Shown: positions 30,451 through 34,356 of the stretch, piece by piece
Position numbering within the stretch: position 1 is the stretch's first letter
Layout of the letters: each line of letters opens with the position of its first letter
Origin: Candidatus Delongbacteria bacterium
GTDB taxonomy: Bacteria; UBA4055
Assembly: GCA_003252515.1 (NCBI GenBank)
Contig: QKDR01000005.1
Coordinates: forward strand, 1-34,356
Direction: 5' to 3'
Length of the DNA: 34,356 nucleotides
The notes under the pieces: model-generated
What the model saw: only the letters and a program-made list of their open reading frames with translations
Databases searched by the model: none
Told to the model about the DNA's origin: nothing
Made by a program: the position numbers and the translations under genes

Positions 30451-30567
30451 GTATTATATTGATAAAATTATATTAATTGGTGACGAAATATGCGGATATT
30501 AGGATGAATGATTAAACAGGACAATGTTAAAATGTCGTGAATAATGAGAAAAAATCTCTTAAAACAC

Positions 30568-30596
30568 TTGACAAAACAAGTAATTGTCTGTATATT
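30568..30596 (+). promoter_or_regulatory. Near-consensus promoter of the RloAB-TIR operon with overlapping inverted repeat
   Basis: TTGACA (30568-30573), exactly 17-base spacer, TATATT (30591-30596). An inverted repeat ACTTG-N6-CAAGT (30566-30581) overlaps the -35 box, and GACAA (30570-30574) is mirrored by TTGTC (30584-30588). Such overlap suggests a repressor site. Transcription would start near 30603, ruling out a start codon at 30544. Confidence 0.8.
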
Positions 30597-30636
30597 GTCT
30601 TCGGGTGGAGAAAATAATTACAATAAAGGGTTTAAA

Positions 30637-31965
30637 ATGCTGATAGGATTTGAAATTGAGAACTGGATGTCATATAAAGGTAAAACGGAATTCTCTATGA
30701 TCGCGAGCAGAGAAAGGCAGCATGGAGAGAGGGTTCCAAAGATCCCGAAGTTTCAGAGCAGGATACTTCCGATAGCTTCGATCTATGGCGGCAACGCTTC
30801 AGGAAAAACAAACTTCTTCAAAGCAATAGATTTTGTAAAAGATTTTGTTGTTGAGGGTACTAAACCGGACAGTATGATATTATGCGAACCGTTCAGACTT
30901 GATAATGAAAGCGCGGATAAACCGACAAGTTTCAAAACAGTTATGCTCATAGATGAGGTTATATATGATTACAGTTTTTCTGTAACAAGAAAAGCCGTGA
31001 TAAACGAGAGACTTGTTCAGATAACAAGCACAAATGAGAAAGTGTTATATGACAGAAAAGACGGAAACCCGAATTTTCATAAATCTTTGAAAAGGGACGG
31101 CCTTTTAAAATTCGCTTTTATGGGTACAAGGCCGAATCAGCTGTTTCTTACAAATTCAGTCTCACAGAGTGTGGATACTTTCAGAAATGTTTACGACTGG
31201 TTCAAAAACACTCTTGTACTTATAGCTCCTGATGCGCGTTTCGGAAGATATGAAAGTTTTTTTGATGACAGTGATCCTCTTTTTAAAAAAATGAATACAA
31301 TATTGTCTCAACTTGATACAGGTATTGCCAGCTTGAAATATATAAATGTTCCTTTCGATAGTATTCCGATACCTGAACAAATAAAAATAAAACTTAAAGA
31401 AGACATATCTGATAAAACTGTGGCTAAACTTCATTCCCCAGACACAAGTGAAAGATATATTGTTATGAGAGTAGACGGTGAATTGATAGCCAAAAAGCTG
31501 GTTGCTTACCATAAAAATAAAAGCGGTTCCGATGAGAAGTTTGAATTTCAGCAGGAGTCTGACGGATCATTAAGAGTAATTGATCTTTTGCCATCATTTA
31601 TCAGGCTATCGGAATTCAATTCAAATAGAGTAATCATTGTAGATGAATTAAATAGGAGTTTGCATACTCAGCTTACAAAACAGCTGATCAGATGTTATTT
31701 GGCTAACTGCGATGAAAAATACAGATCTCAATTACTTTTCACAACTCATGATCTTCTTCTGATGGATCAGCAGCTTCTCCGCAGAGATGAAATGTGGGCG
31801 GCAGACAGGGATGAAGAAGGAATATCAAGCCTCAGAGCGTTTATTGAATTCAAAGAGATCAGGTATGATAAAGATATTATGAAAAGTTATCTGCAGGGAA
31901 GACTTGGAGGAATCCCGAAGATCACACTGAAGAAGGATAAAGTTCTTAACGACAGGAAATGTTGA
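30637..31965 (+). CDS. RloA/AbiLi-like AAA (AAA15/21, OLD-like) ATPase
   Basis: Start at ATG 30637 (AAGGG upstream and downstream of the promoter); 442 aa. The N-terminus LIGFEIENWMSYKGKTEFSM is the SMC/RecF-like opening of this family. Walker A GGNASGKT at 51-58, an ABC-like signature region ESDGSLRVIDLLP (about 308-320), Walker B VIIVDELNRS (332-341, Asp336-Glu337) and the switch His371 in FTTHD. This set is the abortive-infection/RloA ATPase pattern. RloA-type proteins pair with RloB proteins in the AbiL phage-defence system. The stop overlaps the next gene's start by one base (TGATG). Compared with the two last genes of the operon its base composition looks host-like. Confidence 0.9.
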   Translation: MLIGFEIENWMSYKGKTEFSMIASRERQHGERVPKIPKFQSRILPIASIYGGNASGKTNFFKAIDFVKDFVVEGTKPDSMILCEPFRLDNESADKPTSFKTVMLIDEVIYDYSFSVTRKAVINERLVQITSTNEKVLYDRKDGNPNFHKSLKRDGLLKFAFMGTRPNQLFLTNSVSQSVDTFRNVYDWFKNTLVLIAPDARFGRYESFFDDSDPLFKKMNTILSQLDTGIASLKYINVPFDSIPIPEQIKIKLKEDISDKTVAKLHSPDTSERYIVMRVDGELIAKKLVAYHKNKSGSDEKFEFQQESDGSLRVIDLLPSFIRLSEFNSNRVIIVDELNRSLHTQLTKQLIRCYLANCDEKYRSQLLFTTHDLLLMDQQLLRRDEMWAADRDEEGISSLRAFIEFKEIRYDKDIMKSYLQGRLGGIPKITLKKDKVLNDRKC

Positions 31966-32564
31966 TGGCTTTAAACCGAAGAAAGTTCGAAAGAAAATAT
32001 GTCGCTGTAAGGAGTTATAAGAAACTGTTCATCATTTCGACGGAAGGACAGAAAACCGAGCCTGAATATTTTGAGATTTTCGACAATCGCAATGCTATAA
32101 TCAAAGTTAAATGTCTAAAGTCGGGAAAAGACAGTTCACCTTTAAGAGTATTAAAGAGAATGGAAAAATATATAAAAGAAGAAAGCCTTTTAGATACAGA
32201 TGAAGCATGGCTCGTTGTTGACAGGGACCAGTGGACTGAAAAACAGTTGTCGGAATTAAACCAGTGGGCTGAAAAGAAAGAAAATCACGGTTTCGCCCTA
32301 AGCAACCCTAAGTTCGAGTTCTGGTTGCTCCTTCACTTCGAAGATGTAAAATCCGTAAAGACATCAAAAGACTGTACTGCAAAGCTGAAAAAACATATTC
32401 CCGATTATGATAAAAGCATAAATCCTGATAAGATCACCGACAAAATGATAAATGATGCGATCACAAGAGCGAAAAGCAGAGACAAAGGTTCGTTTGAGGA
32501 TAATTTGAGGAGTTTAGGGAGTACGGTTTATAAAGTGGTTGAGAAGATAATGGAGAGGAAATAA
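31965..32564 (+). CDS. RloB/AbiLii-like TOPRIM-type protein
   Basis: Start taken at the ATG within TGATG (31965), AGGA 7 bases upstream; an ATG at 31959 is the alternative. Product 199 aa. RloB family features: FIISTEGQKTEPEYF (Glu27, the first acidic TOPRIM residue), AWLVVDRDQW (Asp86, Asp88, the DxD pair), and SNPKFEFWLLLHFE (113-126), the family hallmark. TOPRIM proteins are metal-dependent nucleases or related enzymes; RloB with RloA gives abortive-infection type phage resistance. The exact activity is not shown by sequence alone. The stop shares one base with the next ATG (TAATG). Confidence 0.92.
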   Translation: MALNRRKFERKYVAVRSYKKLFIISTEGQKTEPEYFEIFDNRNAIIKVKCLKSGKDSSPLRVLKRMEKYIKEESLLDTDEAWLVVDRDQWTEKQLSELNQWAEKKENHGFALSNPKFEFWLLLHFEDVKSVKTSKDCTAKLKKHIPDYDKSINPDKITDKMINDAITRAKSRDKGSFEDNLRSLGSTVYKVVEKIMERK

Positions 32565-33868
32565 TGAAATCAGTTCGTACCCATGATCTAGCATCTCATA
32601 GAGCTTTCTTTACAGAATATGATTTGCACGGTGATCCCAAATATTGGATAGTTGATTCAGTCAAAGAAGCTGTTAGTAAGGATATGGAAAGGAAATTAAA
32701 ATTATTATTATTAACTAAATCTAGTGTTATAGTAGCAGCATCACAGTTACTTGAATCTCCATTTGCTCATTCAATTATCATAGAAAATCCTGAACTTATT
32801 GAAAGTGGTGCTATAGTATCGTCATTGAAATTTGGGCATAATTCAACGAGAGAATTCCTAAATATAAAAAGAGATGAAGAAATAAAGAGTAAAAATAATA
32901 CATATCATTCTGCTGAAGCATTTGATATCGCAAATTTAATAGATGATAAAGGTACATCAATTAGGTGGCATTTGGCAGTTATGAGCGATTGGTTTAGAGA
33001 TAGATTAGTCAAAGACCTCTCTGATGACAGTAGTTTGATTAGAACTTTTTTAAGATCTAAAAAAATACATTTTCCGCTGGAAATAGGGAATTTATTAAAA
33101 TATGAAAAAGGACTATCACGAGGTAGAGTTGAAGACATTGTAAAGAATTATGGCAATCAAAAGCTTACAGAATTTTTGAAAGTTTATGCTGATTTTATTT
33201 ATTATTTAAGTGGTGCAAGAGCAACAGAATCTGAAGGAGTATTACCACAAGAGAATTTAGTTGATATATCAATTTCTGAATTTATGGGACATAAAATGAA
33301 TTTATCGGAAAATGATATTTTTTTTAAAGTTTTTATAGATACAGTAAAAGCAAAAACTTCTACGATTTTTCCGTCAGATTTTCTTGATATCTTATCTATA
33401 AAGGATGTTTTAGATTTAAGATCAGTTGCTGTATCAGATGAATTTGTAGCAAAATATAATATTTTACAATCAAAAACCAAAGAAGCTATTAATATAACTG
33501 ATTCAGATCGCTTAGTTCTACATCTAAGTGAGTTAGAAGAATTTGAATCAAAACTTTTTGTGAACTTTAATGAATCTTTAAATACTGAGCTAGGAAAAAA
33601 ATTGACAAGAATTCGTCAAAATTCAGCTGTAAAGACATTACATTCGGTTTCATCAATTGCTGGTTTTGGTATTGATGCATATAAAGACTTAGTAGTATCA
33701 GGATTAAAATGGATGTCTTTTGATAAGATTGCAGATAAAATTGATAAAAAAGTTGAAATCGGTTTAAAAACATGTTCGCAACTATTATATAAAATGAATC
33801 TGCTTGATAGACAATTATTTCTTGACTATGTAGATACATTGAAAAATAAATATAAGGAAAAGCTTTAA
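32564..33868 (+). CDS. Unrecognised 434-aa protein, third gene of candidate defence operon
   Basis: I do not recognise the family. It is a soluble-looking, mostly helical protein without signal peptide or membrane helix. Visible features: an N-terminal region of Lys-rich helices (MERKLKLLLLTKSSVIVAAS), a loop with SLKFGHNSTREFLNIKRDEE (about 87-106), a central segment RWHLAVMSDWFRDRLVKDLS, and a C-terminal helical part (SSIAGFGIDAYKDLVVSG). No P-loop, no HEPN R-x4-6-H motif and no HxH or PD-D/ExK nuclease signature were found. Start ATG shares a base with the RloB stop (GAGAGGA upstream), and its own stop shares a base with the TIR gene's ATG. The gene is strikingly AT-rich (33301-33360 has 20% G+C). 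I infer a sensor, adaptor or regulator for the TIR protein. Confidence 0.8.
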   Translation: MKSVRTHDLASHRAFFTEYDLHGDPKYWIVDSVKEAVSKDMERKLKLLLLTKSSVIVAASQLLESPFAHSIIIENPELIESGAIVSSLKFGHNSTREFLNIKRDEEIKSKNNTYHSAEAFDIANLIDDKGTSIRWHLAVMSDWFRDRLVKDLSDDSSLIRTFLRSKKIHFPLEIGNLLKYEKGLSRGRVEDIVKNYGNQKLTEFLKVYADFIYYLSGARATESEGVLPQENLVDISISEFMGHKMNLSENDIFFKVFIDTVKAKTSTIFPSDFLDILSIKDVLDLRSVAVSDEFVAKYNILQSKTKEAINITDSDRLVLHLSELEEFESKLFVNFNESLNTELGKKLTRIRQNSAVKTLHSVSSIAGFGIDAYKDLVVSGLKWMSFDKIADKIDKKVEIGLKTCSQLLYKMNLLDRQLFLDYVDTLKNKYKEKL

Positions 33869-34356
33869 TGAAAGTGTTTGTTAGTCATTCAATGAAAGAT
33901 CATGCTTTGATAGAAAGTATGAATTACGTTTTAAGCCAAAGTGGAATAAAGCTTCTTCTAGCAGAACATGAAATAGATATAACTCATACTATCACTGATA
34001 AAATTAAAAGTATGATCGAGGATTGTAGTTTTGGATTAATTTTGTTAACAAAGAATGGTATTAAATCGGGTTTTGTAAGGGAAGAAATTGGATATTTAGA
34101 AGCAAAAAAGAAACCAAATGTAATGATAGTAGAAAAAGGTGTTGAGAAAAAATACGGTGGTTTCAAATTTGGTCATGATTATATACAATTAGATGTCGAT
34201 AAACCTGAGAATGCAATAAAAAAAATCAATGATACTTTGATGAAATTCTGGAATGAAATGAAAGAAAAAGAAGAACAAAGAAAAGAAGATAATAAGGCTA
34301 TACTTATAGGTCTAGGTGTTCTAGCATCATTCATTGTAATTTTACTTAGTGATAAT
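33868..34356 (+). CDS. TIR-domain protein with C-terminal membrane helix (partial, cut by right edge)
   Basis: Read by hand: ATG at 33868 in TAATG, AAGGA upstream, open for 163 codons to the window end. Residues 1-115 form a TIR domain: MKVFVSHSMKDHALIESM (box 1, VFVSHS), ITDKIKSMIEDCSFGLILLT (helix and strand, box 2 area) and SGFVREEIGYLE, where Glu73 aligns with the NAD-hydrolase glutamate seen in SARM1-like and bacterial TIRs. Residues 120-142 are a charged, helical linker (KEKEEQRKEDNK), and 144-160 a membrane helix (AILIGLGVLASFIVILL). A membrane-tethered TIR enzyme suggests NAD depletion or signal production at the membrane. It may continue beyond the edge into a further domain. Confidence 0.88.
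   Translation, partial: MKVFVSHSMKDHALIESMNYVLSQSGIKLLLAEHEIDITHTITDKIKSMIEDCSFGLILLTKNGIKSGFVREEIGYLEAKKKPNVMIVEKGVEKKYGGFKFGHDYIQLDVDKPENAIKKINDTLMKFWNEMKEKEEQRKEDNKAILIGLGVLASFIVILLSDN

Follow-up and report, generated by a model that had tools for sequence, protein, structure and literature searches.

Organisation of the locus

The window, that is the whole stretch of DNA that was analysed, corresponds to one entire contig of 34356 bases, which forms part of a draft genome of a Candidatus Delongbacteria bacterium (2.52 Mb in 183 contigs; 95.9 % complete). From position 30568 onwards a sigma-70-like promoter is followed by the genes for RloA, RloB, an orphan protein here termed X, and a TIR protein, all encoded on the same strand (Table 1). 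Promoter-like sites overall occur at a frequency not above that in shuffled sequences, and no terminator-like sites were observed inside the operon in the region scanned. Both the promoter and the three successive stop/start overlaps noted in an initial annotation of this DNA could be confirmed. Overlaps of -1 to -7 between RloA and RloB are frequent in other RloAB loci, while those at RloB/X and X/TIR are specific to the window locus. The four genes share a promoter and translational coupling, and would be expected to be co-transcribed.

The TIR frame runs off the end of the contig in frame, at its membrane tail and with no stop codon before position 34356, and no other contig of the same genome matches the contig end. 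As the contig stops inside this open reading frame, the 3' end of the operon lies beyond the available sequence, and the "four-gene operon" of the initial annotation, although accurate as regards the four open reading frames, must be read as a lower bound.

Table 1. Features of the window operon and of loci used for comparison
Feature	Location	Strand	Basis and remarks
Sigma-70-like promoter TTGACA-17-TATATT	30568..30596	+	11/12 consensus positions; top score in region
RloA, AbiLi-type AAA_21 ABC ATPase, 442 aa	30637..31965	+	PF13304 2.5e-36; PADLOC AbiLi 2.1e-73; alignment with relatives
RloA/RloB junction TGATG	31963-31967	+	Stop/start overlap
RloB, AbiLii-type TOPRIM nuclease, 199 aa	31965..32564	+	PF13707 1.9e-38; AbiLii 5e-24; alignment
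RloB/X junction TAATG	32562..32566	+	Stop/start overlap; abrupt base-composition change here
X, orphan protein, 434 aa	32564..33868	+	GC 0.29, GC3 0.16; no recognised relatives
X/TIR junction TAATG	33866..33870	+	Stop/start overlap
TIR protein with C-terminal TM helix, 163 aa seen	33868..34356	+	TIR_2 1e-10; CAP12-PCTIR_TIR (PF10137) 1.3e-7; PADLOC ThsB 4.7e-10
Predicted catalytic Glu E73 of TIR (VREEIG)	34084..34086	+	Invariant in alignment of TIR relatives; aligned with Glu column of solved bacterial TIR
Predicted C-terminal TM helix of TIR protein	34297..34353	+	19-residue hydropathy 2.42; hydrophobic tail common to relatives
G011: RloAB, then KTSC + Cap15 (2TM effector) + DncV-like CD-NTase	L070 8238-11913		CBASS; close, same strand
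G010: RloAB, then 719-aa AAA_13/SMC-like ATPase + KTSC protein	L071 29-4176		PADLOC PDC-S06/S46 matches (ATPase)
G012: "integron cassette protein" family M1E1E6-like, directly behind RloAB	L072 13780-14139		Pfam, 1.4e-20; contig ends soon after
G003: RloAB, then no co-directional gene
TIR - ~93-aa - PIN cassette loci	Genome contigs; L088-L095, L100, L101, L103, L105

RloA and RloB

The open reading frame of RloA opens mechanically at position 30544, while alignment with relatives, which included the Geminocystis and Klebsiella plasmid copies, favours the start MLIGFEIENW at 30637. The Walker A motif (GGNASGKT, at about 30787-30810) and a Walker-B-like motif (VIIVDEL) are both retained in this alignment, and the acidic TOPRIM motifs of RloB (Glu and DxD, in TEGQKTE and VVDRD, respectively) are intact and conserved with the relatives. 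An alternative ATG for RloB at 31959 matches the -7 overlap found in the relatives. On the basis of these sequences RloA and RloB are members of the known RloAB/AbiL (AbiLi-AbiLii) abortive-infection family and represent a complete system, agreeing with that family in protein content, order and overlap as well as in the ATPase and TOPRIM motifs. The window operon differs from it in that two further genes of foreign composition are located behind RloB.

Published work describes RloB as OLD_TOPRIM-related and assigns the role of toxic effector in AbiL to AbiLii (PMC10440598). The pair also resembles PARIS (AriA-AriB), in which an ABC ATPase sensor is likewise combined with a TOPRIM nuclease, and probably has a trigger-and-release mechanism in common with it; in PARIS, AriB is held by AriA, is set free in response to a phage protein and then cleaves tRNA (PMC12409363). 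Membership of PARIS was, however, rejected, with RloA matching AbiLi at 245.3 bits and AriA, a general relative only, at 109.6 bits, and with RloB belonging to PF13707 and having no AriB match.

Protein X

The reading frame of X runs for 434 codons without a stop, whereas the longest such run in 2000 shuffles was 115, and with GC contents of 0.40, 0.30 and 0.16 at the three codon positions it is certainly a genuine gene. No family match for X was obtained in Pfam, PADLOC or PHROG, and the sole NCBIfam match was insignificant. Relatives were absent from plasmids and phages (tblastn, also at E 10) and from about 600 genomes searched, where matches at E 0.04-0.07 were checked and rejected. Scans of viral and genome contigs with short peptide patterns, which reach close relatives only, likewise yielded none; some of these patterns were derived from a hand-made degenerate alignment, the extra rows of which are invented conservative variants that served solely to widen the patterns, and matches obtained with motif patterns were judged to be due to chance. 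A weak alignment with DNA polymerase beta in the PDB (E 0.017), on a helical stretch, was also taken as chance, and the single-sequence structure model (pLDDT 31.7) was unusable. As only close relatives are within reach of the peptide-pattern scans, X may have a known fold and be evolving fast.

The TIR protein and its relatives

The last protein of the operon is of the small TIR-TM type and is predicted to be an NADase with its catalytic glutamate in place. Its relatives are small TIR-TM proteins encoded in draft genomes of many bacteria and some archaea (e.g. L012-L016 and L087-L105), which share its size, catalytic glutamate and C-terminal TM helix. They differ from it in that none adjoins X, while many have a gene for a ~93-aa protein and a PIN gene downstream. 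The nearest relative, in an Ignavibacteria genome (L087; 44 % identity), has neither an X-like neighbour nor this downstream pair.

Several known systems bear comparison with the X-TIR pair. As in Thoeris, a small TIR protein adjoins a second gene, and the top PADLOC matches of the window TIR are ThsB models, although these also match other small TIR-TM proteins lacking ThsA. It differs from Thoeris in the absence of ThsA, in the TM helix of the TIR protein and in X, which, having no PADLOC or Pfam match, shows no recognised SIR2, SLOG or macro domain. The PF10137 match similarly recalls the CAP12/PycTIR effectors of CBASS and Pycsar, but the four genes of the window include neither a cyclase nor a recognised ligand-binding domain; PADLOC comparison of the four operon proteins, covering the genes up to the contig end, gave no match to a CD-NTase or Pycsar cyclase. 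The identities proposed in the initial annotation (RloAB/AbiL, an unknown 434-aa protein and a membrane TIR) were borne out by Pfam, PADLOC and alignment, including the comparison with defence-system models that it had called for, in which RloA, RloB and the TIR protein were matched and X was not. Among the papers searched, none joined RloA, RloB and TIR.

A conserved three-gene cassette can be distinguished in the TIR loci, in which a TIR-TM protein (about 160 aa) is followed, with nearly fixed spacing, by a ~93-aa protein that belongs to no Pfam family and by a PIN-domain protein of about 130 aa. It occurs in Nitrospira, Elusimicrobia, Aerophobetes, WOR-3, Phycisphaerae, Brocadiaceae, a Methanobacteriaceae bin and others. 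The window TIR could be the first gene of such a cassette cut by the contig end, in which case the acquired unit would be larger than X-TIR: both downstream genes lie just behind the TIR gene in 12/25 genome TIR loci, and the next cassette gene would begin at about the position where the window contig ends. With the window TIR closest to L087, which has no cassette, this explanation is nevertheless highly improbable.

Genes behind RloAB in other genomes

RloB was detected above the Pfam cut-off in 34/290 genomes sampled. The thirteen genomes available for the source phylum all belong to one family. Thirty RloAB loci, including that of the window, were read, most of them with a flank of 1.5 kb, which covers the next gene rather than the whole island. 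When the genes behind RloAB were tabulated, as the initial annotation had proposed, X or TIR followed RloAB in 0/29 of the other loci, and the neighbours varied. No matches to X, TIR or the TIR profile were found at E<=10 among the 1063 ORFs of the RloAB loci; the same profile does recover TIR proteins in the TIR loci. A Klebsiella plasmid of 4982 bp has, according to its (incomplete) gene table, RloAB plus mobilisation genes only. As the other RloAB loci, including this 5-kb plasmid copy, lack X and TIR, RloAB appears not to need X-TIR.

Within the source family the RloAB proteins are orthologous (53-71 % identity) and precede different genes in each genome (Table 1). These comprise a CBASS operon in G011, where the two systems lie side by side and are possibly co-transcribed, an ATPase gene and a KTSC gene in G010, and an integron cassette protein gene in G012. 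A small KTSC protein is thus encoded behind RloAB in two of the family's genomes, and in G003 no co-directional gene follows. Elsewhere, AbiE is found behind RloAB (G065), and a CBASS-like operon is located upstream of RloAB on an Agrobacterium plasmid. The slot after RloAB thus holds variable genes, several of which are defence modules.

One system or two modules

The base composition of the operon changes abruptly within the coupled genes. The GC3 values of RloA and RloB are 0.35 and 0.41, respectively, while those of X and the TIR gene are 0.16 and 0.19, with a range of 0.40-0.61 for the other window genes over 150 aa; the break from 0.41 to 0.16 coincides with the RloB/X junction. In G010 and G012 the low GC3 of the downstream genes is less distinct from that of RloAB, where RloB itself has values of 0.26-0.27. 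Their composition suggests that X and TIR were acquired together from an AT-rich source and placed exactly behind the RloB stop codon.

Two proposals had been made in the initial annotation, namely that RloAB feeds the membrane TIR through a new protein, or that two defence modules have been fused. According to the first, the RloA/RloB complex would detect the phage and, via X, activate the membrane TIR, giving a four-component machine with one trigger and two effectors. Such a machine would be striking, and the single promoter, the overlaps throughout and the absence of an internal terminator-like site are consistent with it, as is the combination of a sensor with interchangeable effectors known from other defence systems. 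The evidence nonetheless speaks against it: X or TIR occurs in no other RloAB locus examined, RloAB is complete without X-TIR elsewhere, the composition breaks at RloB/X, and in relatives the position of X-TIR is taken by other genes, which include known defence modules. An integrated system is accordingly very unlikely, and the proposal that RloAB feeds the TIR protein is left unsupported.

The second proposal fits the independence of RloAB and the composition break better. The locus is probably a composite defence operon, in which an autonomous RloAB/AbiL system and a separately acquired candidate X-TIR module are co-transcribed. Two modules are favoured over a four-part machine because RloAB stands alone or with other genes elsewhere, because GC3 breaks at RloB/X, and because orthologous RloAB in the source family precedes different genes in each genome; the occurrence of TIR relatives without X was also counted in favour. 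Against this, the run of one-base overlaps across the four genes could reflect a co-adapted stoichiometry, the pairing of X with TIR comes from a single contig, and X, for which relatives are not known, may have RloAB rather than TIR as its partner. Two findings had been named beforehand as speaking against the initial interpretation: RloAB being followed by unrelated genes in relatives, which was observed, and the X-TIR pair always occurring in a different known system, which was not, as no second X was found.

X and TIR may also be mutually unrelated, with an orphan gene and a stand-alone TIR-TM gene merely clustered in a defence island. The closest TIR relatives, L087 among them, have no adjoining X-like gene, as would be expected in that case, but the unusual composition common to X and TIR and their one-base overlap suggest joint acquisition, and a chance clustering appears rather unlikely.

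Proposed mechanism and implications

We infer the biochemical activities in the following scheme, as well as the partnership of X with the TIR protein. By analogy with PARIS, RloAB most likely consists of a TOPRIM nuclease kept in check by an ATPase sensor: the ABC-type ATPase RloA would sense a phage protein and keep RloB inactive until triggered, and the freed RloB would cleave DNA or RNA, in the latter case probably tRNA as in PARIS, stopping infection. The X-TIR module would have come from an AT-rich source and been inserted directly after the RloB stop codon. X is most simply viewed as a regulator or sensor that probably controls the membrane-anchored TIR NADase, which would deplete NAD+ or make a signal, leading to cell arrest. 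Alternatively, in the manner of Thoeris, the TIR protein may be the signal maker and X the effector.

While RloAB represents a known family, the combination of an orphan protein with a membrane TIR in the window is new; this candidate X-TIR module, from one contig, may be a TIR defence module not described before. Also new is the pattern that the slot just behind RloAB differs in gene content from genome to genome in the source lineage (X-TIR, CBASS, or an ATPase and KTSC). If this pattern holds more widely, the genes directly behind RloAB operons would provide a route to the discovery of defence modules.
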